Source of the DNA: Morinoia aosen
Taxonomy: Eukaryota > Arthropoda > Malacostraca > Amphipoda > Talitridae
Reading direction: 5' to 3'
Length of the DNA stretch: 64,000 nucleotides
Assembly (NCBI GenBank): GCA_030386875.1
Contig: CM059575.1
Span: forward strand, 43,120,859 to 43,184,858
Positions 10,638 through 62,371 of this stretch are shown piece after piece. Made by a program: the position numbers and the translations under genes. Position 1 is the stretch's first letter, and every line of letters begins with the position of its first letter. Below the pieces are notes generated by a model. It saw nothing but the letters and a program-made list of their open reading frames with translations. It did not search any database and was not told where the DNA came from.

Positions 10638-10646
10638 TAGTAATAT

Positions 10647-13600: not shown

Positions 13601-14345
13601 CTCGAGCTTCACCGCGGAGCTCTATGGTGTCTTGGAGGCACTTCAACTAGTCAAGGAACACCCGCATGATAAATTCACTGTTTTTATTGACTCGAAAAGC
13701 GTCATTGACTCTGCTCAGGCTTATGATAGCACTCACCCCCTCATTGGTAAGATCGTCTTGATGCTGGTGCAGCTTGTGCGTGAGCACAAACATGTGAAAT
13801 TGTGTTGGGTGCCCGGACACGTGGGGGTGTCAGGCAATGAGAGAGCAGACCAGGAGGCGAAGCGTGTTGCGAATAGTAATGAGGAAACTCTAAATCAAAT
13901 GGTACCCTTTCGGGACTACTATCCCGTGATCAAGGCTGCTGTAAGACATCTGTGGCAACAGGAATGGGACAACAGAATGGACAACAAACTGAGAACTATT
14001 AAAGAAACAGTTCTGGAATGGCCCTCGTCGAGGTGTCGCGTCCGCCGGCTGGAAGTGCTGCTCTGCCGTCTTCGCATCGGACATACTCGACTGACCCACC
14101 GTTATCTAATGGAGCGACAACCACAGCCGCGATGCGAGCGGTGTCACGTTCCTCTGACCGTCAAACACATACTTGCGGAGTGCCCGAGATATGCAGCTGA
14201 CCGAAGTGTATGCTTTCCAAACCTCCGTCTTTTTGCCGTGGATGAGGTGCTAACCAAGATGCTTGCGGAGATCGAACGTGTGACTTTCAATGTGGATGCT
14301 CTGGTGTTGTTTCTTGAGAGATGCAAATTGCTGTCGGAATTCTGA
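10647..14345 (+). pseudogene. LINE ORF2 (endonuclease-RT-RNase H) with one premature stop
   Basis: Read through a single TAG at 11010-11012, the frame is about 1232 codons. The apurinic-type endonuclease shows QWNVRG near the start, LQET, GDFN (about 11044) just after the stop, and SDHFPIV. The reverse transcriptase has FFDLFKAYD (about 12370), GLPQGSVMS and the catalytic YVDD (about 12640). RNase H follows with YTDGS, TAEL, IDSKS and GHVGVSGNERAD (13510-13850). A Cys/His motif (CERC...H...C, about 14126-14185) closes the protein. The stop falls inside the endonuclease, so this copy should not make full-length protein unless the stop is read through. The part from the ATG at 11103 (1080 aa) is intact. 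Confidence 0.92.
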
Positions 14346-17840: not shown

Positions 17841-18018
17841 CGAGACCACGCTGTGGTTGTGGGCATTCACATGCCCAAGGGCTCGAAGGTCCTCTACCTG
17901 GGGGCTGCCAACGGCACCACGGTGTCGCACGTGTCTGACATCGTCGGGGAGGAAGGTGCTGTGTATGCCGTAGAATTTTCCGCTCGGTCAGGCCGTGACC
18001 TCGTAAAAATGGCGACGA
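17841..18018 (+). pseudogene. Fibrillarin (rRNA 2'-O-methyltransferase) fragment
   Basis: The frame reads [17 protein letters not shown], then [20 protein letters not shown] and [10 protein letters not shown]. This is the S-adenosylmethionine-binding core of fibrillarin, the box C/D snoRNP methyltransferase. Only about 58 codons are present, starting abruptly at the insertion border, with no start codon and no intron visible within it. It continues without a break into the gypsy sequence, so it is a captured fragment and not a gene. Confidence 0.85.
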
Positions 18019-18089
18019 AGATTTCGAATCTCCAAAGTAAATTTGATCGTTACAAGTGCTCTGAAATTAAGATGGCGCATTCTACAGTT

Positions 18090-18740
18090 TGCTGTCCTGC
18101 ATTCGACGTTGGAGTGGAAACAGTTAGTAATATCTACAACGATTCAAGTACAGTGTGCAGACGTTCTTCAGAAGGCGGGAAACAATGGTGGTAACAAAGC
18201 TAGTATTATAGTTGAAGCTTCGCCTGTAAACATCATTACTGATCTAAAACGAAGAATTTAACCTACGTTACTCACTGATGCTACATATGAGGAACTTGAA
18301 GGAAAGTTAATACTACAATTTAAAATCAAGAAATCCACTGTTGGCGCATCTGTTACATTTCTGAACAGAGAGCAAAGTGTTACAAAAGGTATGCTAAAAC
18401 GTTAAATGACTTTGCATTTTCGTGCAACTACGAAAATTACGGTCGCGATCGTCTCTTTAGAGATGCTCTTGTGGCCGGTCTACATTCAGCGCAAATTCTC
18501 AGCGCGGGTCTACAGAAGTGTGACAGCAAGTCCTTTAACAGTAAAGCTTCGACGCTCCAGATATCATTCGTGAGGATTCATCTTCATCGTTTTTCACTAC
18601 AGAAAAACTACAGCCGAATTACATATGTATTCGCTGCGGAACTAGGCAGAAGCACCTTACAAAGAATTGCTATGCCCTAAAATTAAATTAATAAAATGCA
18701 AAAAATGTGGAAAAAAGGCCACATTTCTAAAGTTTGCAAT
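18090..18740 (+). pseudogene. Ty3/gypsy gag remnant
   Basis: Pieces in shifting frames resemble gypsy gag: a capsid-like segment with LTDATYEELEGKLILQF (about 18275-18325) and YAKTLNDFAFSCNYEN (about 18390-18440). Two zinc knuckles follow: CIRCGTRQKHLTKNC (about 18627-18672) and CKKCGKKGHISKVC (about 18697-18738). Several frameshifts and stops interrupt it. Confidence 0.7.
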
Positions 18741-31383: not shown

Positions 31384-32490
31384 TTAGGGAGAATCCAGGC
31401 CTAAAATTATTTTGCCCACTGAAGAGTCAGTGGTAGGGGCCTGATAATAGTTTTTAAATGTATTGACACTCTTCCAGTCTCCCGCCGCGATAATCTGGTG
31501 AATTGAGGCTCCTCGAGCATGTGCAGCAGACAAACCGGCGCCTCGGTAGGAATGTGCGGTGAATTGATTGGTATCTATACCCGCAAGTTTCAAAACTTGG
31601 GTTAGCCATCTTGCTTGAGTTTGTCGAGGTACTGGTCTTTTTGATGACCAAGAGAGGAAAAGTCTTGTAGGCTTAGGCTCCCCTTTTAAGCAGCAGTGGG
31701 ATCTCAATGAAAGAGTTCTGTTCATATACGCATAAACATAATGATTGGTATCAAGCTCTGGCAGCGAGGGTGTTGAGATGCACCGCACCACCTTCGGTTT
31801 CAAAATTCTTCGTGTGGTTTTAAGGGGTTCATAAATCACGAACGATACATCGTTCTCTGCGAGCTCTGCTTTCTCAATGTCCAATAAGTGGAGAGTCTGA
31901 CCCCGGTCAGATGAAGTTAGAGCAACCAGGGCAAGGGTTTTTAATGTAAGCAACTTAAGGGAAAGTGAAGCAGGAGGGTGCAGGGTTTTTAAATAATCCA
32001 TAAGGATGTTTACTGGCCAAAAGGTAAAGTGTTTTGGCCTAAGAGGCCTGGCTCGGAAGAAATATCGAAAGAGCCTATTTATCTGATTATTCTCCGTAAT
32101 ATTTAAATCGAAACAAAATAAACTTAATGCACTACGGGCAGTATTAATTGTAGGGGATTTAAAGCCTTTATCAAAAAGAGAGATAAGAAAATCGCAAATT
32201 AGTGGAATAGTGGGGTGATTTGAATACCCTTTGTTCTTAAGCCAATCGAGAAAATATTTCCAGAATCGTTCATATGTGGCCAGGGTTTGGGGAGATATGC
32301 TCTTGAGAAGCGACCGTGAAGTATTTTCTGAAAAGCCCGCACTTTTGCACTGTTGCTGGAAATACTCCAAGCCACTAGGTGGAAGGGGCGGCGAGTTGGA
32401 GTTGATCCTAGGAGATGAGAAGCTGATATGAAATAAGGGTCGGCTATTAGGAGAGGGATAACTGCCGGGATTACTGGATGGCCAGGCCAA
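31384..32490 (-). CDS. DIRS tyrosine recombinase
   Basis: 368 aa, open throughout. A helical N-terminal domain (about residues 25-150) with ATYERFWKYFLDWLKNKGYS resembles the SAM-like DNA-binding domain of tyrosine recombinases. The catalytic part shows SSDRGQTLHLLDI (first Arg), AHSYRGAGLSAAHARG (His-x-x-Arg) and GDWKSVNTFKNYY (candidate nucleophile Tyr). It should join the circular cDNA to the target by strand exchange, which explains the lack of a normal target duplication. Its first 292 bases overlap the upstream pol frame in another frame, as is usual for DIRS elements. Confidence 0.9.
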   Translation of the reverse strand: MAWPSSNPGSYPSPNSRPLFHISFSSPRINSNSPPLPPSGLEYFQQQCKSAGFSENTSRSLLKSISPQTLATYERFWKYFLDWLKNKGYSNHPTIPLICDFLISLFDKGFKSPTINTARSALSLFCFDLNITENNQINRLFRYFFRARPLRPKHFTFWPVNILMDYLKTLHPPASLSLKLLTLKTLALVALTSSDRGQTLHLLDIEKAELAENDVSFVIYEPLKTTRRILKPKVVRCISTPSLPELDTNHYVYAYMNRTLSLRSHCCLKGEPKPTRLFLSWSSKRPVPRQTQARWLTQVLKLAGIDTNQFTAHSYRGAGLSAAHARGASIHQIIAAGDWKSVNTFKNYYQAPTTDSSVGKIILGLDSP

Positions 32491-32912
32491 GCTGGAGTAA
32501 TCATTAGAGCATATGGGGTCTTATCTTTGAGAACTTTATCAATACATTTTTTCAACATAGGAATAGGGGGAAACATGTAAATATTTTCTTTCCAGGGAAT
32601 GGGAAATGCATCAGTTGCAAAGGCCAGAGGATCGTGATTTTTATATACAAATTTGTCCATTTTACAATTAAGTCTGGTGGCAAAAAGATCAATATTTGGC
32701 ACAAATGAAACCCTGCTAAGCAATTTTGAAAATGCTTCTGGTGACAAGGAATATTCATGAACAGAGGGACTCATGTTTCTGGACGAAGAATCTGCTTGAG
32801 AATTTGAAGCTCCTGGAATAAATTTGGTTGTTATTTCAATGTTAGATTCAATACAAAAACTCCAAATATCTATTGAAAGTAAGCAGAGATTACGGGAGTG
32901 AGTCCCCCCCAA
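32199..32912 (-). CDS. DIRS pol, C-terminal region after RNase H
   Basis: 237-codon frame starting within the end of RNase H (FIPGASNSQADSSSRN). It continues with LFATRLNCKMDKF, and PWKENIYMFPPIP, then ALMITPAWPGHPVIP. These blocks are typical of DIRS pol between RNase H and the DNA N-6-adenine-methyltransferase-like domain. It is in the same frame as the RT piece at 33105-33779, but an intervening stretch (32913-33104) is frameshifted. Confidence 0.75.
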   Translation of the reverse strand: MGGTHSRNLCLLSIDIWSFCIESNIEITTKFIPGASNSQADSSSRNMSPSVHEYSLSPEAFSKLLSRVSFVPNIDLFATRLNCKMDKFVYKNHDPLAFATDAFPIPWKENIYMFPPIPMLKKCIDKVLKDKTPYALMITPAWPGHPVIPAVIPLLIADPYFISASHLLGSTPTRRPFHLVAWSISSNSAKVRAFQKILHGRFSRAYLPKPWPHMNDSGNIFSIGLRTKGIQITPLFH

Positions 32913-33885
32913 AATGGTTTAAATAATGAACTACTGTACTATTGTCTGAATGGATCACCACCTTAGAATTGATCAGTTTTGATTTGAAACATTTGATAGC
33001 AAATTGGACAGCTTTGAGCTCCAAAAAATTAATGTGAAGTTTGCTTTCTGCTTCAGTCCATCTTCCTGAGGCTTTATCTCCGTTGGAGAGTGTTGCACCC
33101 CAACCTATTTGGAGGCATCTGTATGTAAGGACCAGTTTGCTGCAAAGGGCAGTAAAGAACGCGAACTCAAATTATTTGGGCATGAACTCCACCAAGAGAG
33201 ATCTGCACGGGAGGAATCGTTTAATTGAAATATTGAATCCCAAACTTTACCAGATGAGACCAATTTTGTGATCTGCATTTGAAATGAACGATAGTGTAAA
33301 GGGGCCTGGGGAAATCCTGGTGAAAGACTAACCAGGAATCCCAGCATAGAAGAGGCCTTCCTAAGAGATACAGAAGATTCTCCTAATAGGTTATTAGCGA
33401 AAGTTTTAGCTTTCAAAATTTTTTCTGAAGGTACTGACACTGACATGCTCTTTGAATTCCATAGGAAACCTAAATGAAGCAAAGAGTTAGAAGGGTTTAG
33501 ATGAGATTTTACTAAATTAGGTTTGAAGCCTAAGGACTTGAGAAGGCTTAGTGTGAAATTGATCTGTTCTGAGAGTTCATACTCTGAAGGAGCACAAAGA
33601 AAGAAGTCATCCAAATAAGCCGAGATTTTAAATCCTCTGCTACGGAGAAAGGCAATGACAGGTCTCAATACTTTAGTGAAAATTCTTGGGGAAACAGTGC
33701 ACCCAAATGGAAGGACATTAAAACAAAATCTTTGGTTATTAAAGGAAAACACTACAAATCTTCTACTCAATGGATGCAAGGGAATAGAGAAAAAGGCTTC
33801 AGATAGATCAATAGAGGCTAGAAAATCATTTTTGATATTAAAGAGCTTATTAGAGAAGAATCCTCCATTCTGAAATGAACCTTGT
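32913..33885 (-). pseudogene. DIRS reverse transcriptase and RNase H, frameshifted
   Basis: The frame at 33779-33105 contains FCFNVLPFGCTVSPRIFTK, the catalytic ISAYLDDFF, and HLGFLWNSKSMSVSVP, all RT motifs of DIRS/Ty3-type polymerases. It ends LHTDAS at the first RNase H residues. The rest of RNase H (WGATLSNGDKASGRW, ELKAVQFAI, IHSDNSTVV) is in a shifted frame. An upstream frameshift near 33886-33910 separates the RT N-terminus. At least two frameshifts therefore disrupt pol. Confidence 0.85.
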
Positions 33886-34284
33886 TCAGATGAGTATTGA
33901 GTGTGGACAGATCAATAATGAGACATTGTCTCCTGACGGCTTTTTGACTACGAAAATACGAGAAACAACCTGGTCTTTACTTCCTTCTATAGGGCTTATA
34001 GCCCCAATGGAGCATAAATAGTTTATTTCTGACTTCAGCATAGCAAATTTTTCTAAATTCTTTGGGGTAGAATCAATATTTGTATCTAACTCTGGAGCTG
34101 AGGAAAACTGAAGTTTGTAACCCTCTTTCACTATATTTAATATAAAACCATTAGAAGTTAATTTACTCCAATTTTTGAAATACCTTTGAATATTTCCTGC
34201 GACCACGACGGACGATGTTTTATTGTGATCGACGCTTGCCCCTGAAGCGGCCCCGGCCTCGGAATTGGCGGAGCTGTTGGCCAC
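33886..34284 (-). CDS. DIRS pol, N-terminal part of RT
   Basis: 132 codons ending by frameshift. KSEINYLCSIGAISPIEG and RIFVVKKPSGD are the first RT blocks of DIRS pol. The following block (CLIIDLSTLNTHL) lies in the next frame. The start overlaps the end of the gag frame by about 65 bases. Confidence 0.75.
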   Translation of the reverse strand: MANSSANSEAGAASGASVDHNKTSSVVVAGNIQRYFKNWSKLTSNGFILNIVKEGYKLQFSSAPELDTNIDSTPKNLEKFAMLKSEINYLCSIGAISPIEGSKDQVVSRIFVVKKPSGDNVSLLICPHSILI

Positions 34285-34738
34285 GAAATGTCTGAGAGGC
34301 TTGGCCTTTACGTTGAAAATTACTAGGATTTTGGAAAGCAGGTCGTTGATTGAAAGTTGGATTTGGTACGACGAAAAGTTTTGAAAGGGATGACTGCTCC
34401 TTAATTACTCTATCGGTAGATTTATCGAAATCATCTTCGCCAAAAAGGGAATTATGCGTTACCGGTAACGCCAGGAAAGAATTGCGCATCGGTCTTTTAA
34501 CCAGAGGGGACACCAGAGCTCGCCTGAATCTATTCAGTTGTAAGTTCGATGAACATAGCAGTTGAATGGCTGATGTCAAATTAGCTTTTTTCTCTTCGTC
34601 TTTTTCAGTCTCCAGAACAGACAATAAAGGCATGATGGCAGAGTACACGCAAGATTGTGCCTTATATACTACTCTCTGCTGAAAGCCCATTGTTGGAGTA
34701 GGTTTCAGGCAACTTTGGGGGATTAAAATGTGAAGCAC
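34220..34738 (-). CDS. DIRS gag, C-terminal part
   Basis: 172 codons containing the helical region SVLETEKDEEKKANLTSAIQ, the segment NSLFGEDDFDKSTDRVIKEQ and a basic tail RGRGRFRGKRR. The order fits DIRS gag. It is offset by one frame from the preceding 220-codon ORF, so gag is either expressed with a frameshift or, more probably, mutated. Confidence 0.65.
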   Translation of the reverse strand: MLHILIPQSCLKPTPTMGFQQRVVYKAQSCVYSAIMPLLSVLETEKDEEKKANLTSAIQLLCSSNLQLNRFRRALVSPLVKRPMRNSFLALPVTHNSLFGEDDFDKSTDRVIKEQSSLSKLFVVPNPTFNQRPAFQNPSNFQRKGQASQTFRGQQLRQFRGRGRFRGKRRSQ

Positions 34739-35324
34739 ATTCTTCTGGTGGTGTAAAACGTTCTTGTATTTTCTTCAACTCCTCGTCTTTGAGGGAAATA
34801 TCCGCCACCTTGAGGTACCAGTCGTACGCTTTTTTAGGTGGGAGCCACTTTGGCTTAGAAATCTCACCCATTATAGGGAAGCCATCATCGCTTGAGTTGC
34901 CTTCTGCATCCCCTTCTAGCATAGCGTTTTCAAAGTGACCAATATCTGAGGTATCATCCCCAAGGTCATTGCTAGGGGAGCTGGCATTCTCATCCAAATT
35001 AGCGGTATCGACATGCTCCAAGCTGTCATTGTGGGAATACTGCACTTCGTGCCCCACGTCGTTCAACTTAGCACATTTCTGTTTTGGCCCTTCTTGTCCA
35101 AAACCGGAGGCTTTTCTTTTTAATGCTTTCTTTGCAACACTGAATTGTTCACCACTTGTACTAGGTCTATTGTTATTTTCGTCACTGATGTTACATGTTA
35201 ACACTTTTATCGCTTCCGCATTTGATCTAGTCGATTCAGCAATCGCTTGCATGAAGTCCTCAATTTTTTCCCAATTTGAAGGGGTAGAAAGATCAATGGA
35301 ATCTATTAAGATATGTTCTGCCAT
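34662..35324 (-). CDS. DIRS gag, N-terminal part
   Basis: 220 codons from the ATG at 35324, starting MAEHILIDSIDLSTPSNWEK. It has acidic low-complexity segments (NASSPSNDLGDDTSDIG) and then MGEISKPKWLPPKKAYDWYL. It lies right after the right ITR in the reading direction, where DIRS gag is expected. No direct domain was recognised beyond position. Confidence 0.65.
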   Translation of the reverse strand: MAEHILIDSIDLSTPSNWEKIEDFMQAIAESTRSNAEAIKVLTCNISDENNNRPSTSGEQFSVAKKALKRKASGFGQEGPKQKCAKLNDVGHEVQYSHNDSLEHVDTANLDENASSPSNDLGDDTSDIGHFENAMLEGDAEGNSSDDGFPIMGEISKPKWLPPKKAYDWYLKVADISLKDEELKKIQERFTPPEECASHFNPPKLPETYSNNGLSAESSI

Positions 35325-38999: not shown

Positions 39000-39314
39000 C
39001 GAATTGATTGAGTAATGAATTAATTTGGAATTTCTTGGAAATGCGTAACTGGGTGGCGCTAGCGCGCAAGCGGTAGCTTTTACGTCCACCCCTATTCATA
39101 CATCACGCCTTTTGTAGCAACCGCCATTGGGTATAGGCTCGTGTTTCTCTTGTGGCGAGTTTAATGCGCGATGAGAGAGGAGAATCACGACGCCCGAAGA
39201 TTTGATACTTTATTTGGGAGGCAATTACGGAACGGCGGGAGCACGCGAGGCAAGGACTTTACGACCACACCGCTTCGAACAAGACAACTCAAACTCACAA
39301 AATGTCCTTCAATT
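39000..39314. other. GC-richer segment without recognised gene
   Basis: This stretch and 39830-40400 are clearly less AT-rich than the rest of the intron. They flank the 115-bp array and may belong to one unrecognised element. No coding motif was seen. Confidence 0.35.
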
Positions 39315-39756
39315 GATCGCCCAGAATGACCAGACAACAGACTGTGTAACGACAGTCGGAATACGCTCCCGATATCACACCAAAACGAGCGTCTCGGCCC
39401 ACGCTCAAGCACGATTCCCTGTCCTTGCTGATCGCTCAGAATGACACAACAACAGACTGTGTACCGACAGTCAGAATACGCTCCCGATATCACACCAAAA
39501 CGAGCATCTCGGCCCACGCTCAAGCACGATTCCCTGTCCTTGCTGATCGCTCAGAATGACACAACAACAGACTGTGTACCGACAGTCAGAATACGCTCCC
39601 GATATCACACCAAAACGAGCGTCTCGGCCCACGCTCAAGCACGATTCCCTGTCCTTGCTGATCGCTCAGAATGACACAACAACAGACTGTGTACCGACAG
39701 TCAGAATACGCTCCCGATATCACACCAAGACGAGCGTCTCTGCCCACGCTCAAGCC
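39315..39756 (+). repeat. 115-bp tandem repeat array, 3.8 copies
   Basis: Units start at 39315, 39430, 39545 and 39660, exactly 115 bp apart; the last is truncated. Each contains GATCGCTCAGAATGAC, an inverted repeat GACTGT/ACAGTC, and CGAGCGTCTCGGCCCACG. The first unit differs most; the next two are nearly identical. Because 115 is not a multiple of three, overlapping ORFs appear in all frames, but they are artefacts of the array. Confidence 0.92.
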
Positions 39757-50160: not shown

Positions 50161-53100
50161 AGCAAAAATTTTGTTGTTTTAATACATGTCATCTACCTTG
50201 TACATCGTTCATAAAGGCATATGAGATATAAAATGTTGAAATGATTATCTAATTTTTTGTAGAGTGTTAGAATGTGTGCTTACTTGATACTTCATTACGG
50301 GACGGTCTTAACTTATTTGCTAAGTTACTTCAGAATTCATAAGTTAAAATTTGTTCACAAAATCGCTTTATTTTATAATTACTATTGCGCACTATTTGGT
50401 CACAAAGCCAGTTGTAGAATGCTGTCTAACGTCAGCATGTATGTCTGATTATTGCTCTGCTGCTCAACAAGCATGTCCTTTTCCTGTGTATGCGGCTTTA
50501 TTTGCGAAATCCCAACAAATCCCATGCATGTAATAATTCTGGCCTCGAATTTGATTCATGCTCAGATTTGCCATGCGAGTTCATGTTGCTATCTCACTGG
50601 TTGACTCCTCCGATTCATTTCTACTTTTATAATCCTTTATGGAAAAATGAGGAATGAGACTAGGCTTAATTATTCCTTGAGCTATTGACTCACACCGGCC
50701 CGAGTTCAAAACATGACATACCGTAGAAGTGATCTAACGAATATGACCTCAAAAAATTTTAGAGCACAGCCATTCATCGAAGTATCCTTGCGGGAGGTGA
50801 GGTGACAAAGATTTTTTGCATTTATCTAATTCAGTGTACATTGAGTTGTGTTTTCTCCTTCCTCATTGATCTGTCTCATAAATGTTTTAGAAAAGAAAAA
50901 GAAAAAAAAAAGAAAAAACATTTTATTTCCAATAAAGTACAAACATGAAATGTCGATACATTGGTTTTTAAAACACCTTAACATTAACATCCTTAAATGA
51001 TTATAACACATTGGTAACGTAATACCCGTGTAAAATGTTGAAACGAAATGATTGATAGAAAAGTACAACAAAATTGAGTTCCTTTCCTTGCCTAATCTGA
51101 TTTTGAAACTAGGAGAGCACAATCCTCGCGACGTTCATTTGAAAAACACTCTCACTAGTACGCACAAGTAGTGAAAAATGAAAGCGAAAAATGCATTCAA
51201 ATACCTTAGCATAGAAACCCTTAATTGCTATTTATACATGGTTATCGTAATATCCGTGTTAAGTGTTGGAACATATGATTTAGATCCTTAATTGCTATTC
51301 ATACATGGCTATCGTAATACACATGATGGTTGTCGACACAGGATTTAGGGAGAAGCACAAGTTAATAAAAAATAAACAATAATATGTATAAGAGGATCGT
51401 TTGCATTTGGAGGGCGGCACTAAGTTTCAGTTTCTGTGTTTCAATTTCTAAGTTTCAATTTCTGAAATTTTTGCTAGGGATTGAAAATTTATCTTATTTT
51501 ACGTTCGTTAAGTCATTTTAATATTGATCTTGCTTACTCCGGTCGAACAAAATGAGCATCACAACTGTTGGTTCCACGCAGCGGAAGGAGGTTGCTTTCC
51601 ACAATTACTAGTACTTCATCTGTGGTGCCCGGAAATGGAAATGGAGCGTATTATTTTTCTAATAAATTATCAACTCCAAAATCCAGGAATTCCTTTCGCC
51701 CATCCGACAACACTTTACTCCCTCTTCCGGTGATGCCCCGCATCCGGTCATGCCTCCACATTTGGTTACGCTTACATTTGTTTATATCTTACATCCGGTG
51801 AAAGCCCACATCCGATCTTTCATCCCTATGCAAGGTACAGAACACAAAATGGTTATGATATTTCTTACTTGCGCAAATAGTACTTTCGCAAAGAGTACAT
51901 CGGGGTTAAAAACATGAAAAGTATTGTTTTACAGCGCTAGATGTAATATTTTCAACATAGGTGGAACCGTGCAAAAGTTAACTATTTAAAATTAGTGTTG
52001 TCGTAGTGTATTCACGAGAATAAAAAGGTAAGAAGAGTTTACCACACAAAGCTTACGACAGCAATTCGAGACCAGAATAAGAAGATTAAAATGATGATTT
52101 TCAAAGTTATGACATTCGTCAGATCCGAGGCCTTTTTAAATGTTTCAACGAGATCGAAGTAGAGAAAGTATGTACTAAAATACCCTCACATTTGACATCC
52201 GCTCTCTCTCTTTGCGGTAATTAATTTGGGTTTGGAAATGCAAGATGAAAGTGAGTCACTAAGAACACAAAATCCCTGTGACACATAGCTGAAAATACTC
52301 TTGTTAGGGTGCGTGTTATTGGATCACGAGCCCGTAATATTTGCTACACAGCTGGAACACCAATATACACAAAAAAAATTGCTAATGAACTCCGTCGCAT
52401 GTTCAAAAAGCTTCAATATGAGCGAAAAGTACTTACGAGTATCTTAAAGTTAAGACCATGACTTGAGATCGAATACATGAGGATCGTAATATTTATATTG
52501 ATTGATTTTGAAACAAATGGTTGGGAGAAAATTACAAAGAAAAAAATGCATTCCTTCCATTGTGTTGATATCAAATACATGAGGATCGTAATATTTCTAT
52601 CGGTTAAGTTTTGGAACAAATAATTAGGAGACAAGTACGTAGATAAATGCATTCTCTCCGTTGTGTTGGTCTGATTTTAACTCTGGATTTTATTTCAAGG
52701 GGTCAGGAAAACATTGCACATGTGATGCGTTGTTAAGAACACTCCAGTTGGTGCATTTCCATATTGAAATTTGAGCTTGCGAACGTTGGAACTAGTGAAA
52801 TGAGGGATTAAAGGTTGAAGGTACAACGGGTAGATCCAGAATTAATTTACATCTTTGACTGCTAGGTTGATGTTATAGGCAGTTTTACATTGTTTTGTAT
52901 CAACTGGTAAGCTAAAATACCTGGTATGGATGAAATGAACGATTTTACAATAACGGAAAAATTTAAATTTCGTATACTACAAGCTTTGGCACAGAAAAAT
53001 TTACCGGATTCAAAATAGATGAGAGGGACCGATGTACAATGCCAACCGTAACATTATCAAGATTGCTGGGGCAAAACGAGAAAGTCAAAACAACCTCAAA

Positions 53101-53290
53101 TGGTGTGGCCGAAAGCACACTGGAAGAGTGTAAAGGACGACACTGCGTCACAACAGGATCAACATGAGCATTTTAAAAGGGAATACGTTCTAAACATACA
53201 GACACGCACATACCTACACCGATATCCATACGCATATACGCACACACGTACTGCATGTACGCACTCCTCCAGCACGTGCTGCAGTTCACA
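50160..53290. other. Intron DNA with dispersed A-rich-ended repeat fragments
   Basis: At about 50880-51065 an A-rich run followed by TTTATTTCCAATAAAGTAC and CGTAATACCCGTGTAAAATG resembles 60990-61180. Related pieces with CATGG(C/T)TATCGTAATA occur at 51235-51350, and with ACATGAGGATCGTAATAT at 52465-52640. These look like fragments of one repeat family. No genes recognised; the left end probably contains the 3' UTR of the next LINE. Confidence 0.45.
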
Positions 53291-53291
53291 C

Positions 53292-54002
53292 TTATTGTGT
53301 TGACGCAAGATAGAGAGCCATTTTAGTTTTAAATTCTCTCAGTGTTTGAGGGGTTTTGAAGCTCTGGGGGAGTCTGTTCCATAGTAAGGCGCCTGATACT
53401 GACAGAGCCTTCTGCCCGATGTTAGATGAACGGTATTTGATTGAGACATCACGTCTCCTGTTCGGCCTTTGGTTCGTGACGGTAGGGGAGTGGAATTCCA
53501 CTATTTCAGCACTGCTATGAGGAAGATATAAAGAGGAGAAAACGTATTGGGCTTTGTGCGCCTGGAACCTTTCCCGAATCGGAGCCCAGCCAAGTTTATG
53601 CAGGAGAGGTGTTACGTGGTCATGCTTTTTGAATTTACCGTTGCATACAACCTTTGCTGCAAAATTCATGCATTTTTGTAGGTCTTTCTGAAGATCTTTC
53701 GATATACCTCCCCAGACCAGGCTACAGTAGTCAATACATGATAAGACCAAAGAATGAACGGCCAACAATCTAGATTCTTCGTCAAGCATATTTTTTATAC
53801 GATTGAAAAACAGTAAGGTACCGTGAATTGCGTTGCAGGTTTTATCAACGTGGGATTTGAAGGACATGTTCCTATCGAACCAAATACCTAAATTTTTTAC
53901 TTTTTCTGATGGGTGAATTGTATCATTCCCAACTATAAGAGTTAGATCTAGATTTCGAATGTTGTTTATTGAATGCTTTGACCCAAAAATAATGAATTGT
54001 GT
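53292..54002 (-). pseudogene. LINE RT C-terminal domain
   Basis: After the TAA at 54003-54005 the frame resumes TQFIIFGSK and, from 53867, reads MSFKSHVDKTCNAIHGT, HSLVLSCIDYCSLVWGG and a final SVSGALLWNRLPQSFKTP. This thumb/C-terminal region is typical of CR1-like LINEs. The stop replaces the lysine expected in NANKTQ. Confidence 0.85.
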
Positions 54003-55219
54003 TTAGTTCGCGTTTAGCTTGAGACCATTTTGGTCATACCATGACTTGAGGCTGATCAATAGAGCTTCAGCTCCTTTTTTCGTCTGTGGTATTTCTGCTA
54101 CAGAGCTTGTCATTGCAATTTGGACGTCATCTGCATACATGGAGATTCGTGTGTTAGAAGGCATTAGAGGGAAATCGTTTATGAAAATTGAAAACAGTAG
54201 CGGGCCCAGAATTGATCCTTGAGGGACACCAAAGCTGTTTTGAAGGAATGGGGACAACTTGTTATCTAAGAGGACTGCATGAGACCGATTTGAAAGGTAA
54301 CTTTTAAACCACTGTGTATCCACTCCTAAGTTCAGTATTTTTCGTAGGAGTTGATTATGTTCGACGCTGTCGAAAGCTTTAGAGAGATCAAGTAGCAGCA
54401 GAAGTGTTACATTTTTTTGATCGATGTCGTTGTATATTTTTTCAGTGATGTTAAGCAGGGCGTCTTGAGTGCTAGTGTTCTTCCTATAGGCATATTGATT
54501 TCGATGAAGTAAATTTGACTCGTCCAGGTGAGATGACAGTTGATTCGTTACTACTTTTTCTAGTATTTTGGACAGGTCAGGTAGAAGGCTAATGGGCCTG
54601 TAATTTGATGCTGTATTTATGTCACCAGTTTTATGCAACGGTCTAATTATAGAGTGTTTCCATTGTTTTGGAAACTTGTTAGTAGCTATTGATGTGTTGA
54701 TAATCAAACGAATAAATGGTGCTGTGACTGGAAAACTGTCTTTTATGTATTGGAGGTTGATTCCATCATGTCCAACTGCTTTTGTGTTTATCAATGAGTA
54801 TAAAATAGTTTCCAACTCTGGTAAATCGATAGGGTGTGGCTTCCACAGGGCGCCAGCCTTTGAAAGTGCAGTAGGGCATGAACTTTCAACTGTCCATTTC
54901 CTCGGACTGGTTTTACTCACTTCATCGAAGACTTGGGCACCTACTTTTGAAAAGAAAGTGTTGAACTCAGTGGCTTTTTCCAAAGGATTTTCAAAATCAC
55001 TTTTGCGCTCTAAGTTTTTATATTGAGCCACCTCACTAATGATTTCCCATGTACGTTTTGGATTATTTTTTGCCATGAATAGTTCTTGGTGGAAGTGAGT
55101 TTGTTTTGCTTGCGTGATTTTCTTCCGAAGAATCTTTCCAAGTTCTTTATATCTCCTGTATAAAGTAATGTTTGACCTGTTCTCTTTATACTCTCGCAAG
55201 TAAATTTTCTTTATTCTGC
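54003..55219 (-). pseudogene. LINE reverse transcriptase
   Basis: About 400 codons with KAVGHDGINLQYIKD, NYRPISLLPDLSKILEKVV, LLLDLSKAFDSVEHNQLL, GVPQGSILGPLLFSIFIND and the catalytic MYADDVQIAM. All RT motifs are intact. It lies one base out of frame with the endonuclease and is closed by a TAA. Confidence 0.92.
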
Positions 55220-56269
55220 TTAGGTCTTTAATTTCGCTGGTAATCCACAGAGTGCGTTTTGCCTAGTTTTTTTGGTGATATAAGGAGCGCATTCATTTAG
55301 AGCTGCTGTAAAGTTCTCGTTAAAGATAGAAACCTGAATGTCCCCATCGTCTGATTGCATCATGCTCTGAAATTCGGTGAGCCTGTTTAGAAGTTTTTCA
55401 TTAAATAGTTCCGGCGAATATTGACTTTTTAGGCGGTAAGTCATGAGACGATAGTTTTGTCTTTCCTTTGCAATATTAATTTTACATTCTACAGAGTGGT
55501 GATCGGCGACAGAGGGTGATATTACTGTATTAAGTATTGCCGTAGGTTTGTTTGTGATTGCTAGATCGAGGAGAGTCTTAGATACTCTTGTAACGCGAGT
55601 CGGTTCTTTAACCATTTGTGAAAGGTTTAGTTTGTACAACAGTCTGCTAAGCTGATTTTCTTCATCCGGTAGGTCAATATTAAAATCACCGAAAGCAAAG
55701 AATGACATTTTTGTAGCTAAAATTTCTTTGAAAATTTTCTCAATGAACTCTACTGTTGTTGGTAGAGAAGCTGATGGGTGCCGGTAAAGGCTGCCGGTAA
55801 TGATGGATTTATGTTTATTTATTTGCACTTTCAACCAAACCATCTCTATGCCCTCGCACACTTCGTTTGTTAAAAGTAAAGACGACTGGTAAATTTCTTT
55901 TACGAAAATACAAGAACCACTACCTTTGCTATTTTTAACGCCGTCATGGCGGTACAGCACGTAATCGGGAATATTGAAAAAGGAGCTCTGAGTTCGCGAA
56001 TCGAACCATGTCTCGGAAACACATAAAATGTCAATGTCTTCTGTGACCAACATTACTCTAATGTCATCCAGCTTACTAAAGAGGCTACGAGCATTGATAT
56101 GTTGAATTTTAATGTTTTTTATTTTATGGCGATTATTTGTGGCATCAGAGGGATTTTTTGGTAGGGACTGTTTCGTGGATTTATTGATTTTATCATTGTT
56201 GCCCAGAGTGTCAAGTCTAGCATCTGGTGTATTTGAGAGACTGCCATTTAACTGGACAACAGTATTTTG
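55220..56269 (-). pseudogene. LINE apurinic-type endonuclease
   Basis: The frame is open from 56269, although its first ATG is at 56053. INARSLFSKLDDIR, LCVSETWFD (catalytic Glu), SLYRHPS, FAFGDFNIDL (GDFN) and ADHHSVECKI (in place of SDH) mark the APE-type nuclease. It is in the same frame as the upstream OTU ORF and separated from it only by the TGA at 56270-56272. It ends by frameshift at the conserved SEIKDL-like junction to the RT. Confidence 0.9.
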
Positions 56270-57646
56270 TCATGAAGATGATGTGATATCAGTCTTGTTT
56301 TTGTCTTGTGCAACAAGGGTACTGTTGTGATAATTTTTCCGATGAAGCATCAACGGATGGTTATTAGTTGATACTTCTGGTGAGGGGTCGACTACTGTTC
56401 TCCAAATACCATCGCCTTGCTCATCGAAGATGAAAATTCTCCTACCAGTGATCTTTGATATGATATGTGGTATTAAGTCCCCAGCATCATGATCAAAATG
56501 TTTTTCGTCAATGAATTTACTTATGAGCCTAGGTAGATCACCGCTTTTCTCGGCAAGGAAATTGACATATTTGATTTCATTTGTAGTGCTTTCTTTTTTT
56601 ATTGCTGCTTTTAAGGAATTGTAACTCCATTTTGAGGGCGATTTTGTTTTAAGCTGGTGAGTTACTGCATGAAGGAGGCAGTGCCCATCGGCTATGGTAG
56701 GATGCAGCTTCACTTTCAATGATCGTTTTAATTCATCCATGGTGGTACTGACGAGTGAGTACATGGGGCTTGAGTGATATTTAGGCTGACATTCAGCATT
56801 TTCAGACGAGAGTTGTTTGGATTTCTTGCTTTCCTGGCTATGAATTTGCAGGCTGTGGCCAGTTTTAGTTGAGTGAGCGACTGAGAAATGAGGGGTGCTC
56901 TTGTCATTTCCACTTTCTTGGTGGTGGTTATGTGTGCGGTTTGGCTGTAAATATTTTATCGGGTTTTGACCGAGATTCTGCTGCAATTTTTCTCTTTGTA
57001 TTGATTTTACTGCTTCCGAGTACGTGTTTGGTTGTTGATGATTTGTACTCGTTTGTGATGAGGGTATATCGCTCTCTGAGTTCGCGTCAGATAATAACGA
57101 GAACCTGTTTTTTGTGGGTACTCTGCGGTAGCCGGAGATCAACGGAGGGGAACGTTCATTCTCAATAGGCAAGCAATGAATCAGGTTTCTGGAGACTTCA
57201 CTGGAAGCAGTTAGTGATCGAGTAGAATTCTTCAATTCATTTTGCTGTTTTGTACTGATGTTGGAGCATTCAGTTTTGTCATTTAGGCCATTTGAGTTTA
57301 TGAGACATGAGCTAGATTGTAAAGTGAGTTTTAGACTCGATCTGAGAGCAATCTGTTGAAGAAAATGGTGTGTTTCTTCTCTTTTACCGGGCCAAGTACG
57401 AACATCATTGCAAGTTATGAGACCAGTTGCACCGTTTGTTCGGAGCGGAATCAATTTAATACCGTTTGTTTTGCACAAGTTCAACGCCTGATGCAATTGT
57501 TTACCGCTACACGCACTCACGACACAAATACGGGCTGACGCATGCTTAGAAAATATGAGTTCTTTGGTTTTAGCAATGTTAGGTTGTGAGAGGCTTAAGG
57601 AGACCATCCCAGGCCTCTGCCAGGCCCCTGTCGGTCCGGGGGTCAT
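56270..57646 (-). CDS. LINE N-terminal region with OTU-like cysteine protease
   Basis: 458 codons. The N-terminal two thirds are polar and low-complexity with an initial globular-looking part (ICVVSACSGKQLHQAL, GLITCNDVRTWPGK). Residues about 310-450 resemble an OTU protease: IADGHCLLHAVTHQL supplies the catalytic Asp/Cys (D320, C323) and MLHRKNYHNSTLV the catalytic His (H440). Between them lie KAAIKKE and GRRIFIFDEQGDGIW. OTU enzymes are deubiquitinases or related proteases. The Cys-His spacing of 117 residues is in the family range. Activity is inferred only from these residues. Confidence 0.75.
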   Translation of the reverse strand: MTPGPTGAWQRPGMVSLSLSQPNIAKTKELIFSKHASARICVVSACSGKQLHQALNLCKTNGIKLIPLRTNGATGLITCNDVRTWPGKREETHHFLQQIALRSSLKLTLQSSSCLINSNGLNDKTECSNISTKQQNELKNSTRSLTASSEVSRNLIHCLPIENERSPPLISGYRRVPTKNRFSLLSDANSESDIPSSQTSTNHQQPNTYSEAVKSIQREKLQQNLGQNPIKYLQPNRTHNHHQESGNDKSTPHFSVAHSTKTGHSLQIHSQESKKSKQLSSENAECQPKYHSSPMYSLVSTTMDELKRSLKVKLHPTIADGHCLLHAVTHQLKTKSPSKWSYNSLKAAIKKESTTNEIKYVNFLAEKSGDLPRLISKFIDEKHFDHDAGDLIPHIISKITGRRIFIFDEQGDGIWRTVVDPSPEVSTNNHPLMLHRKNYHNSTLVAQDKNKTDITSSS

Positions 57647-57728
57647 TTCTCATGTTTTTGTTGTAAAAGGACCCTTAGGTGGTAGACTATTCGTTCCTAA
57701 AATTTTATGGCGCTACGGACAATAATTT

Positions 57729-57755
57729 CCCCCCCCCCCCCCCCCCCCGGGGGGG
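57729..57755 (+). repeat. Poly(C)-poly(G) junction
   Basis: Twenty C followed directly by seven G. The abrupt change may reflect a palindromic homopolymer or an assembly join. It lies just upstream (minus-strand sense) of the LINE OTU ORF. Confidence 0.7.
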
Positions 57756-57769
57756 TAAGGCGACCAAAT

Positions 57770-58860
57770 TTTTTCAATTTTTCCGATTTTGACCCCACAT
57801 AAAAAGAGAACAAATAGGAAATGGAAAAAAAGCTTAATTTGAGTTTGTTAGAAATGTTCCAAGGATTCTAAAACGGTCTTTGCTTTTTTTCTAGCATCAA
57901 AACTGAAGGAGGAGTTCCATTTTGAAATATCAATATGAATGAAAAGCACCCAAAATATTCCATTTTTTCCCGATTTTGACCCCACATAAAAAGAGAACAA
58001 ATAGGAAATGGAAAAAAAGCTCAATTTGAGTTTGTTAGAAATGTTCCAAGGATTCTAAAACGGTCTTTGCTTTTGCTCTAGCATCAAAACTGAAGGAGGA
58101 GTTCCATTATGAAATATCAATATTAGTGAAATATCAATATCTGAAAACCAATCTTTCAAATTTTTGCAAAATCTAAGGCCTGAATCAAAAAAATGAATAG
58201 AATCAATTGTGTTTATTTTCAAAGGTTACATATCATAGTCAAATTTTATAAGAATCAGACTGAAAATAAAAAAATTCATTTTGTTGAAAAAAAAATGATA
58301 ATTTTTATTTATTTATTTTTTTTTTGAAATCACAATTCACACTTTTAATATGAAGTTATGTATGGAAAGTATCGAAATAAAAATTAAAATTGCATTCAAT
58401 TACATCAAATGTTCATTATATTACACTTCAACAAAAAATTTTATTTTTTGCTATACCCAACAATTCTAACTTTCAACATTCATCCTGGGACTAGTTCTCG
58501 AGTTTTGATGCTAGAACCAATCCAAAGACAGTTTTAGAATCCTTGAAACATTTCTAACAAACTCAAATTCGCCTTTTTTTCAAATTCGAATTCTTCGAAA
58601 AAATATATAGCTCTAAACCCAAAAAAATGTTGCTGATTTTTGAAATATCAAAAAATTTTGAAAAAATAGAAAAAATTTGAATTTAAAAAAAAACGAATTT
58701 GAGTTTGTTAGAAATGTTCCAAGGGTTCTAAAACTGTCTTTGTTGTTGTTCTAGCATCAAAACTGAAGGAGGAGTTCCAATCTGAAATATCAATAAAAAT
58801 ATACCAAAAACACATTTTTCGTCAAAAAAAAAAAACTAAGGCCTAAATCAAAAAAACGAC
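57770..58860. repeat. Degenerate repeat cluster, three direct and one inverted copy
   Basis: A core of about 110 bp (TTTGAGTTTGTTAGAAATGT, then AAGGATTCTAAAACGGTCTT, then CTAGCATCAAAACTGAAGGA) occurs at 57838-57950, 58023-58125 and 58697-58800 on the plus strand, and inverted at about 58495-58570. The first two copies lie in a tandem unit of about 187 bp that starts GATTTTGACCCCACATAAAA. The intervening DNA is very AT-rich. The cluster separates the two minus-strand ORFs of the LINE. Confidence 0.8.
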
Positions 58861-60017
58861 AGGAGTAAAAAAGGTTTACTTTTACAAAATACATATACTG
58901 GCCAACTTTCAAACGAATCGGACGAAAAAAGTTGAACAGCCGGGACGGTCTCCTTGTCTCTGAAGCAAACGATGTAGTTAGTGAATTGAGGCATTTGGTC
59001 ATTTACGTTCAGGAGATCATCAATGCGACTGGAAATTACAGTTCGTATTTTACAAGAGGGGTCAATGTCGGTCCTTTGGACCGTCGTGAGAATTTTATCT
59101 CCGACAAGAAAATTATCCAGAGATTTTTTGCAGTGCGAGTCAGAAAATTGGCTTGTCGAAAACGGGATCTTTGGCGTAAGATCGAAAGAGCTTACATGCA
59201 AGTTCAATTTGAAAAGTTGTTCTGTAATGAGCCTAATATTTGAAGCGGTTGAAGATATCGAAAGTGGAGTTGGAGGCGTCCGCTGTTTTGACATTTTCTG
59301 CAGTGAGAGACAGGCTGCAGTGAGAGACAGGTTATTGTTTACCTGGTGAATGAAATGGGACATTGAAATTTGAAGCGGGTGCAAGCTGTTTGATGTAATA
59401 TTCTGATCACTAGAATTATATATATTAGAAATATTAGAATCGTAAATATTAGGCTCATTCATCGCATCATTCCCGGTAGCTAGTGACAAATCTACATTTT
59501 TACCCATCCTACCCCGTGGGATATTTCTTGATTCTTTCGCTGGTGTATCTTCTCGAGGACTGCTTGGATTGTTGAAACCAGGCTCAGGGGCTTCTTCCTT
59601 GCTCTTGCCAGGGCTTGTTTTGACTGCTTGCGATGCCGATGTGAAAATTTCGTTGTTACCAGCAGCGCTTGGGAGATTTATGTCTGTGGCGAGTGACTCA
59701 GAAACTCGACTCTCAGTCGGGCGACCTTCTGTCGACTCTCTGTCGGTTTGCTCTGGTGATAGTAGATGTGTTGCGGTGCTTTCGTTGACGTTGCACTGCT
59801 TTACCGTCGGGGTTTTTTCTGTTATTTTGAGCGGTTGAGGCTTTTGAACGAGCGATTTTACGCGTGACGTTTTTGGTGGTTTTCGTTTCCATTTCATGAA
59901 CGGTTCAGATATATTCTGCTGATTTGGCTTTGAGTTTTCAAGCAGCGTTGTGAGGGATGTTATTTCTCCAGATAAAGCCGCTTTACGAGTAGCAGAGCGA
60001 GTTTCATATGAATACAT
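58848..60017 (-). CDS. Unidentified ORF, possibly LINE ORF1
   Basis: 389 codons from the ATG at 60017. It is rich in S, T, N and P, with low-complexity N-terminal half (SPGKSKEEAPEPGFNNPSSP). The C-terminal third looks more globular: CKKSLDNFLVGDKILTT, IDDLLNVNDQMPQFTNYIVC and FRDKETVPAVQLF. The very end (SKPFLLLSFF) runs into the A/T-rich repeat cluster and may be an artefact. Position and orientation upstream of the OTU-LINE suggest ORF1 of that element, but no zinc knuckle, RRM or esterase motif was found, so it may be something else. Confidence 0.4.
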   Translation of the reverse strand: MYSYETRSATRKAALSGEITSLTTLLENSKPNQQNISEPFMKWKRKPPKTSRVKSLVQKPQPLKITEKTPTVKQCNVNESTATHLLSPEQTDRESTEGRPTESRVSESLATDINLPSAAGNNEIFTSASQAVKTSPGKSKEEAPEPGFNNPSSPREDTPAKESRNIPRGRMGKNVDLSLATGNDAMNEPNIYDSNISNIYNSSDQNITSNSLHPLQISMSHFIHQVNNNLSLTAACLSLQKMSKQRTPPTPLSISSTASNIRLITEQLFKLNLHVSSFDLTPKIPFSTSQFSDSHCKKSLDNFLVGDKILTTVQRTDIDPSCKIRTVISSRIDDLLNVNDQMPQFTNYIVCFRDKETVPAVQLFSSDSFESWPVYVFCKSKPFLLLSFF

Positions 60018-62371
60018 CGTGAAAGATATTTTAGGTTTTGTTCACTGATTAGAAGTTATTGAAATCGTTAACAAAGCATGATCCCTGAGAGTTCATTGAC
60101 ACGAGGCACGGTCTTGCCAGAGTACAACTTCTATTTTGCTGTGATTTTGGTTTCCATGGTTTGAGAAGTAGGAGACATAGGTGACATTGCTTTTAAAATG
60201 GGATGAAAAATAAACTGTCAGGCGATGAAAAGAAACCCACAGACACTCAATTCATATTCACTGACACTCAACATAAATTTCGCAATAACAGATGAGAATT
60301 GCGTAAATTTATCACTGTATTTTATGTTGGTGTTCACAAAATTCAACTTTGCTATTTCATCAGGTCTTTTTTGCTTCACGTAAGTATTCGTGGTAAGCTT
60401 GTTTCGGTTCAAGTCGGTGCGAGTGACGGGATGCGGAGGAGGAGGGAGGGGGTTGTTGCGGTTCACCAGGGAGGGAGACGGAAGTGACCATTTCTGGAGG
60501 CTGTTGCACGCACTTCGAGTCTAAAACATAGTTTACAGAATGCGCCATTCAGTTTTGCACGATGAAATTCAGCACTTTTTACAGCTGATTTTTTGATGAC
60601 TTTTTCCAGTTTCACGATTCAATGATGTAGAAAGTACATTCACGAATGCTCAGTTTTTCATCAGTTTTTCACCACATTTTGAGGTGCTTGAATAGTAGCA
60701 CCAAACAACTCCCCGCTGGAGCAGCGACACCTCACCTCCTCTCACTACCGCAGCCTCAACTACACTTAGAGGAACTTACGTTTATGATGGAAAGATCGGG
60801 CATTGCTCGTAGTAGAGGATGACGGATGACGATAGATAACCTCACAAAAATATGGACTTGAAGGCTCTACACAGGGTATTGATGTTAATTTTGCGGACAA
60901 AAGTTAATTTGATATTAATTCACTTAGCTGTTAATTCGATGGAGAAAAAATTCATATTAGGAAATCCCCGAGTGGAACGATTGATCGAAGAGAAAATTTC
61001 ATAAAGAAAAAAACGAGAAAAAGAAAAGAAAAGAGAGAAAAACTGTTTATTTCCAGTACAGAGCGTACGAAACATGGTACATCATTGGTGTTTAAAACAT
61101 CTTAAAGTAAGTAAAATACACTCATATGATACACTTATGCGTAATGGAATACCCATGTCACTTGACGAAAAAAAAAATGATTCAAGGCAATGTATTACTA
61201 GTGTTAATTACTCTAGATTTGATGATACATGTAACTACAAAAAATGAGGGTTTCAATTGTTGTAAAGAAATTCAACCATCTTTTTTGACGAACACTTTCG
61301 TAAAATTGTGCGCAATGTGCACAACAGCGGTGCGATGCCGAGTCGAAAACTCCGACCGTGTACTCCAAAGCCTCTCATGTAATTGCTGGGTAAAATGTTG
61401 CGAATAGGAGTGGGTAATACTGATGTTCTAACGATTTGTACAAGTCACATTTCAGAGGTTTTCTCAGAACTTCAACATTCGCTGCTCAACAGCGCTTTGG
61501 GTGCTCAGTACACAATTGACCCTAGTCATAATGGCTAAATGTCACCACTGAAAGGCAGGGTGTGAGGTGTTAGGCGCGCATGTGACCTGACTTCCCTCGT
61601 GACCAAACAATTTTCTCACAATAATACAGTTTGATAAAAGTTGTACTTATTATACTCTAGATTCAGAATTTATAGTATAAATATAATGAAATATAGGGAA
61701 AAAAGAGTCGAATCCACGTCTTCTATAATGTTAAGACGTACTCGGGAGGCTTGTGGTTCTCTGATGATTAGTCAAGGCACTGGGGCATTTACTAGGTTAG
61801 TAGCTGCCCTGAAGTTAGCATTCGTCGTCGTATTCGCATTGAAATGCCTGCTTTCCCTCTATGTATGCATATTATTTGATTGTACGAGACCACTTCTGCA
61901 TTTAAATTTATATGTTCTAATACAATAATTGTTTGTTTTGTTAGTTTGATTCGTATTCGAAAATTATTTATGAATGAATGGTTGAGTATACGGAAATACA
62001 ATACTTGTTAACTTAGAAGTTTATCAAGTGATAAAAACCTCTCGATAGATAATCATTTACCATTAGTCTAAAATATTTTTTTATGGTAGTGACAGTCCAA
62101 CCTAAATTTAGCTATATTTTCATTCGGAGTTTCATTCCATATTTTTTTAATTGAGATTTTCTTATTACCTTATATGTGGATAAGAAACTTCCCGGAATTA
62201 TAAAATGAACCTTTTGTTTACCTAAAACATGACACATTAGCCTACCGTATAGCTAAGCAGTCAGAAAGCTAATAACTTGCACCCATTGCCTTCGCATCCA
62301 TGGATGAGGCTAAAATTCGCGTGTTTTTCACGCTCGTACATTCACTCGAGGTGTCCATTGTTTGCTGGTAG
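60018..62371. other. Possible LINE 5' region, then intron DNA
   Basis: 60018-60790 is GC-richer near 60700-60770 and could hold the LINE 5' UTR. At 60990-61180 an A-rich run plus CTGTTTATTTCCAGTACAGA and GGAATACCCATGTCACTTG matches the repeat at 50880-51065. The rest is featureless. Confidence 0.4.

Follow-up and report, generated by a model that had tools for sequence, protein, structure and literature searches.

CR1/L2-type LINEs of the Jockey superfamily encode an APE-type endonuclease and a reverse transcriptase (RT) and, where ORF1 carries an esterase or PHD domain, carry an additional enzyme domain ahead of pol, as the available parts of two papers describe for the esterase (PMC5408684, PMC3905857). 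NeSL and Utopia LINEs bear at their N-terminus a ubiquitin/SUMO-type cysteine protease, but this protease is Ulp1 rather than OTU, the accompanying endonuclease is restriction-like and Utopia generally encodes one protein (PMC4640811, in the part available). Transposable elements with an OTU-type protease have been reported, in the accessible parts of the sources, as Ginger1 and Helentron (PMC2836005, PMC4067079; also PMC6431247); these are DNA transposons, with the OTU fused to the transposase or lying beside Rep/helicase. According to the portions available, murine leukaemia virus gag-pol has an in-frame stop between its structural and polymerase frames (PMC5009743) and UGA-CUA serves as a readthrough context in alphaviruses (PMC4132726).

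Here, we describe two LINE families (A and B) from the amphipod Morinoia aosen, each a non-LTR retrotransposon in which ORF1 (~800 aa) ends in an OTU domain and is followed, past a TGA and in the same phase, by an ORF2 with endonuclease and RT. Both resemble the CR1/L2-type LINEs, except that the ORF1 enzyme is an OTU, not an esterase; we presume their placement in the CR1/L2 group from motifs, not from an RT tree. Murine leukaemia virus and the alphaviruses are viruses, unrelated to these LINEs, and would be alike in decoding logic alone (UAG/UGA readthrough), with UGA-CUA shared by family B. The explanation that we favour, and hold to be probable, is an ORF1 with an OTU protease and a programmed UGA readthrough that would yield an ORF1(OTU)-endonuclease-RT fusion; we infer the catalysis, the substrate and the readthrough.

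The window element and its genomic copies

In the window—the whole 64,000-nucleotide stretch of DNA analysed—the ORF list holds a 458-aa minus-strand ORF (56270–57646). The original prediction placed in it the OTU blocks D320-G-H-C323 and H440 and put an endonuclease frame in the same phase after a single TGA (56270–56272); every residue was found at its predicted position and the shared phase was seen in the window. Searches of the organism's own genome covered a 1.99-Gb assembly of 29 contigs. With the window ORF as query, the best 92 of 7231 candidates scored 93–100% identity, the window included; like the other sets of best candidates used below (150 of 1842 and 150 of 4580), this one is uninformative on older copies. 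The match began at residue 16 or later in 90 of the 92, at residue 3 in one and at residue 1 in the window, and therefore the first 15 residues of the ORF lie outside the repeat. Those 15 codons are contributed by a nested insert, so that the ORF can be read as a LINE protein from residue 16 on but not before.

Copies with a single 805-codon frame, running from MYSYETRSATRK... to ...TDITSSS, include L007, L011 and L016. This frame unites the window ORFs 58848–60017 and 56270–57646, and comparison with the genome copies places the true ORF1 start at the ATG with first base 60017; the OTU ORF appeared separate in the window because the 1,356-bp insert splits ORF1. Six longer stretches (L031–L036) show the order OTU, endonuclease, RT, with ORF1 open in all six and an ORF2 of 992 aa open in three (L033, L034, L036) and broken in L031, L032 and L035. 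The endonuclease ORF starts directly after the OTU in all 30 family A loci read, the window among them; four of these loci, L017–L020, are nearly identical and lie next to one another on a single contig. The OTU region forms the C-terminal end of an ORF1 of about 800 aa. It does not extend the endonuclease ORF at its N-terminal side, which refines the original prediction.

The window's single copy of this multi-copy LINE with APE-type endonuclease and RT is damaged, a member of family A of ~8.5 kb plus the 1.36-kb insert (50892–60761, minus strand, as are all parts below unless stated otherwise), with a 5′ limit common to L033 and L034 and a 3′ limit common to L036 and L054. A 5′ UTR of 0.74 kb (60018–60761) lies between the point where homology to L033 and L034 begins (60761) and the ORF1 ATG. 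The first part of ORF1 (58956–60017) runs without interruption into the OTU part in all of L031–L036; the second (56273–57599), which other copies share from residue 16 of the window ORF, has the OTU domain at its end (approximate limits 56309–56740), with D320 at 56687–56689, C323 at 56678–56680 and H440 at 56327–56329. ORF1 is closed by the TGA at 56270–56272, the proposed readthrough stop, followed by CAA AAT and a linker of 168 nt (56102–56269) in which the ORF2 frame has neither a stop nor an in-frame ATG and a stem-loop is predicted. ORF2 comprises the APE-like endonuclease (55223–56101; Pfam Exo_endo_phos, 28.4 bits against a cut-off of 24.5), the RT (54006–55262; RVT_1, 120.5 bits) and a C-terminal part with the final stop (53292–54002), and is damaged in the window reading frames by one frameshift and one in-frame stop. 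The 3′ UTR of ~2.4 kb (50892–53291) ends near ...GGAAATAAA, within limits shared with other copies.

The nested insert itself (57600–58955, strand not assigned) measures 1,356 bp at 31% GC and falls at a point where the alignments to L033, L034 and L036 all break. A repeat scan of the window found direct (D5) and inverted (I3, I5, I7) repeats within it; taken as a simple terminal-inverted-repeat transposon, it gives an end-to-end match of 5 to 7 of 24. A unit of ~120–167 nt recurs in it several times, in both direct and inverted orientation, and a run of ~20 Gs beside Cs near 57.75 kb may be an assembly artefact.

A Pfam OTU (PF02338) search of the same genome returned places that, for the best 150 of 1842 candidates, all scored over the cut-off (top 38.5 bits). 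Of the 17 that we read, 16 (L037–L052) belong to a LINE of the same type, family B; the remaining place, L053, is an OTU exon of host type. Family B has an ORF1 of 806 aa (L047, L048) ending in the OTU, then a TGA, then an ORF2 of 987 aa (L049). Endonuclease and RT sit within one ORF in both families, with RVT_1 and Exo_endo_phos at 132.9 and 39.1 bits in L049 and 135.2 and 25.6 bits in L033. Identity between A and B is 37% in ORF1 and 65% in ORF2 (L033 against L047 for ORF1 and L049 for ORF2). A 110-aa stretch of L049 matched the best 150 of 4580 candidates at 99–100% identity, with an open frame of at least 987 aa in 89 of these 150: family B has been active recently. Relatives outside this genome were not confirmed among virus contigs (searched with the OTU ORF, the RT and alignment A1) or prokaryote contigs (searched with A1), as is to be expected of such collections.

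Judged on the window alone, where the ORF is separate and its profile score weak, an unrelated ORF or a host OTU fragment might have come to lie beside a LINE by chance, and L053 attests that host-type OTU exons exist in this genome. The own-genome copies refute an unrelated neighbour: the order OTU, TGA, ORF2 recurs in 30 of 30 family A loci and 16 of 16 family B loci on many contigs, which leaves chance with a negligible probability. The OTU is part of the element, and two diverged families have in common the stop, the shared frame and a linker free of ATG.

Other features lie elsewhere in the window and genome. A second LINE of a different type (8733–14345, plus strand) comprises an ORF with zinc-knuckle-like motifs, recognised by eye and unmatched in Pfam at E 0.001, together with an RT/RNase H ORF (Pfam 110.4 and 47.7 bits); neither ORF matched OTU at E 0.001. 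A DIRS-like element (31384–35324, minus strand) has an RT piece (51 bits) and a tyrosine recombinase (Phage_integrase, 28.5 bits) and is flanked by a pair of inverted repeats, each 173 nt long (30630 and 35410). There is also a fibrillarin exon-like fragment (17853–18194, plus strand; Pfam 83.3 bits) and a tandem repeat with 115-nt units (39314–39755), its copies 96% alike. On contig C27, between ~55.8 and 71.4 Mb, lie 8 of the best 150 Exo_endo_phos (PF03372) places, with frames of 209–280 aa and 72.2–113.9 bits, possibly a host cluster of DNase-I-like genes and not LINEs.

The OTU domain

Against the curated PF02338 cut-off of 23.3 bits, the 458-aa window ORF scores 18.9 bits (E 0.0023) and its last 166 aa 20.2 bits (E 8.7e-4), both under the threshold. 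In L033 of family A, the OTU domain reaches 23.4 bits and the entire ORF1 20.4 bits, again below 23.3; in L049 of family B, the domain reaches 35.1 bits (E 2.2e-8) and ORF1 31.7 bits. It is this sister-family score that settles the OTU identity, as the window sequence alone was insufficient; the profile match proposed as a check on the OTU-like domain thus falls short in the window copy itself, but the domain is confirmed through family B.

In searches of PDB sequences, two RNase III chains (E 0.072 and 0.16) outrank Otu1 (E 0.22) for the window OTU, and a joint profile of A and B finds OTUD7B and VCPIP1 at E 0.027–0.12, with no chain under E 0.02; both results speak against the explanation that we favour. 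For the family B OTU, VCPIP1 comes first (E 0.0023) and OTUD7B has E 0.36. VCPIP1 and OTUD7B, the best matches of the family B OTU among solved structures, are cellular OTU deubiquitinases, but they are host proteins without endonuclease or RT, and the matches are weak, that to VCPIP1 extending around the Cys block only. The structure prediction originally suggested as a check, run with AlphaFold2 on the single window OTU sequence, gave a pLDDT of 38.6, and a prediction on the single endonuclease-region sequence gave 36.6, both uninformative.

The catalytic residues are present, in order, in nearly all copies: D in 45, C in 46 and H in 46 of 46 loci, a count that omits L031–L036 (five of which are L011, L022, L025, L027 and L029 again and one a further member of the 92 places) and from which L053, the host exon, was dropped because it gave no hit. 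Directly after the catalytic His stands a Tyr in 45 of the 46 loci, the sole exception being the window copy, which has Asn. In the part of the source available, an aromatic residue at this position marks most deubiquitinase families and their Gly-Gly-cleaving relatives against most other cysteine proteases and is reported to limit cleavage to after Gly-Gly (PMC7391069); 45 of the 46 loci thus bear, as Tyr, the mark of Gly-Gly-cleaving deubiquitinases. These counts favour intact catalytic residues, since the selection took the loci closest to the window OTU in family A and those scoring best against Pfam OTU in family B, and it is therefore the comparison between families that bears the argument.

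That comparison sets one copy of each family side by side (L033 for A; L047 for ORF1 and L049 for ORF2 of B). At synonymous sites, every segment is close to saturation (0.63–0.82 differences per site), including the OTU (0.77), where non-synonymous differences amount to 0.32 per site. The ORF1 spacer before the OTU has 0.59, ORF1 residues 201–400 have 0.36, the endonuclease 0.18 and the RT 0.14. With 0.32 against 0.59 in the spacer, the OTU is a constrained domain beside a loose linker; it is under purifying selection, with its catalytic residues kept. An OTU fold that is catalytically dead and serves a structural or RNP-binding role is very unlikely: the three catalytic residues and the aromatic one after the His have been kept between families that are saturated at synonymous sites, although catalytic activity is putative and that aromatic residue is gone from the window copy.

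Further upstream in ORF1, a region (family A residues 201–400, 47% identical between A and B; for example L033:2790–3500 and L049:374–1186) is moderately conserved and has no Pfam match and no convincing PDB match. Visual inspection of ORF1 suggested a degenerate esterase (a G-D-N/K block), an idea that had neither Pfam nor PDB support and was rejected; the ORF1 pieces scanned gave no Pfam match to an esterase.

The TGA stop and the linker

ORF1 is closed by TGA in 30 of 30 family A loci and 16 of 16 family B loci, a comparison of two families from one genome in which copies within a family share the stop by descent. Of the two readings first offered for the TGA, a mutation or a real boundary, these counts discard the former and bear out the latter. 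The stop is followed by CAA in 29 of the 30 family A loci and by AAA in one (L015), and by CTA, with A as the next base (CTAA), in all 16 of family B. Since the longest open frames are 807 aa (best 92 of 7231), 884 aa (best 150 of 1842) and 1006 aa (best 150 of 4580), no fused ORF1-ORF2 frame exists among the matches listed. The proposed check against other copies thus found OTU, endonuclease and RT in one order and phase, but, among these matches, no copy with a fused frame.

Beyond the TGA, the frame is open over 109 codons in 26 of 30 family A loci and 7 of 10 family B loci. Over 240 nt from the stop, the ORF2 frame is open, against 3 and 13 stops in the other two frames of L033 (A) and 6 and 17 in those of L049 (B); dinucleotide shuffles of the linker were equally open in 504 of 20000 cases for A and 93 of 20000 for B. 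Counted from the first base of the TGA, the first in-frame ATG is 219 nt away in A and 192 nt away in B; it lies inside the endonuclease, behind its H-I-N-A-R-S block. From the stop on, L033 and L049 agree at 9 of 10 bases (TGAC, A or T, AAATA), and 145 of 24472 pairs of 7-mers drawn from both linkers resemble each other as closely as do the 7 nt that follow the stop. Both families thus show features expected of readthrough: a conserved in-frame stop, an open frame beyond it and no start codon before the endonuclease core.

The sequence around the stop differs between the families. In the available part of one source, UGA-CUAG readthrough is demonstrated in four mammalian genes and a stop codon followed by C, whichever stop it is, is held to be weak (PMC4132726). 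The known UGA-CUA motif is found only in family B, whose CTAA departs at the last base from the tested mammalian CUAG. In the window and family A, a predicted stem-loop starts 8 nt past the TGA (−18.6 kcal/mol, with 11 of 200 shuffles as good; z −1.9 to −2.1 over 87 nt), a hint at readthrough and no more; family B has no stem-loop there (z about 0, with 93 of 200 shuffles as good). For selenocysteine recoding of the UGA, which would call for a SECIS element on the RNA, a scan of the window gave no Rfam match to any family at the gathering threshold, which is less than a full test. At the protein level, the linkers of A and B are 28% identical (non-synonymous 0.58, synonymous 0.63), and conservation this poor offers little codon-level proof that the linker is translated.

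Re-initiation, or non-AUG initiation, just past the ORF1 stop would be another way to make ORF2, and one that we consider rather unlikely. In the part of the source available, translational coupling at an overlapping stop-restart has been observed in SART1 and re-initiation proposed for L1 (PMC5972666), and an overlapping start-stop, ATGA, is present at the family A stop in 29 of 30 loci (GTGA in L010). Yet the ATG within this motif is in a different frame from ORF2, and family B has TGA-CTA and no ATGA. A start at the first in-frame ATG, inside the endonuclease and past the NARS block, would lose the first strand and an Asn. This Asn is presumably a metal-site residue of APE-type nucleases; by sequence, the family B endonuclease matched no PDB chain. 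Readthrough, moreover, needs an ORF2 in the same frame in both families, which under re-initiation would be a coincidence of about 1 in 3 per family. A non-AUG start within the linker may still be used.

The position of the OTU directly before the junction also brings to mind a polyprotein protease that would separate ORF1 from endonuclease-RT after readthrough, like the OTU-type PRO/DUB of turnip yellow mosaic virus, which possesses both activities (PMC5695851, in the part available). We regard this role as unlikely, because the aromatic residue after the His (45 of 46 loci) acts as a gatekeeper that, in the available part of the source, restricts cleavage to after Gly-Gly (PMC7391069), and in the alignment Gly-Gly is absent from both linkers. 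The linker is, besides, hardly conserved between A and B.

Decoding, function and significance

Under readthrough, which remains our preferred explanation, the two frames sharing one phase would be decoded as follows. The UGA, in a leaky context, would terminate ORF1, whose OTU-type cysteine protease most likely strips ubiquitin or a ubiquitin-like tag. A few ribosomes would pass the UGA and produce the ORF1(OTU)-endonuclease-RT fusion, and with readthrough in the minority a single RNA would therefore give much ORF1p and little fusion, like gag and gag-pol of murine leukaemia virus. The OTU would then be present in every particle, where it probably takes ubiquitin off proteins of the element itself, or off host factors present at the particle or at the target site, and thereby postpones their removal.

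Whether these elements are LINEs with retrovirus-like decoding, recently active and the first known with either feature, their endonuclease-RT made solely as a UGA(-CUA) readthrough product behind an ORF1 with an active OTU, is a larger claim that we judge evenly balanced. Among the papers listed by full-text searches, as far as their titles, abstract openings and available passages extend, we recognised no LINE with an OTU and no UGA readthrough between LINE ORFs, and the accessible portion of the Hebe paper mentions stop codons as damage only (PMC2861651); subscription papers or Repbase notes may well name such elements.

To our knowledge, the mechanism by which one LINE RNA gives low ORF2 and high ORF1 output is unsettled for most clades. 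If our explanation is true, a UGA-CUA stop between ORFs in the same frame would be a clean and easily tested route to low ORF2. A LINE-borne deubiquitinase would suggest that host ubiquitin tags hold back LINE particles, or LINE insertion, strongly enough for a counter-enzyme to be selected, and would offer a test system for the arms race between host and LINE.
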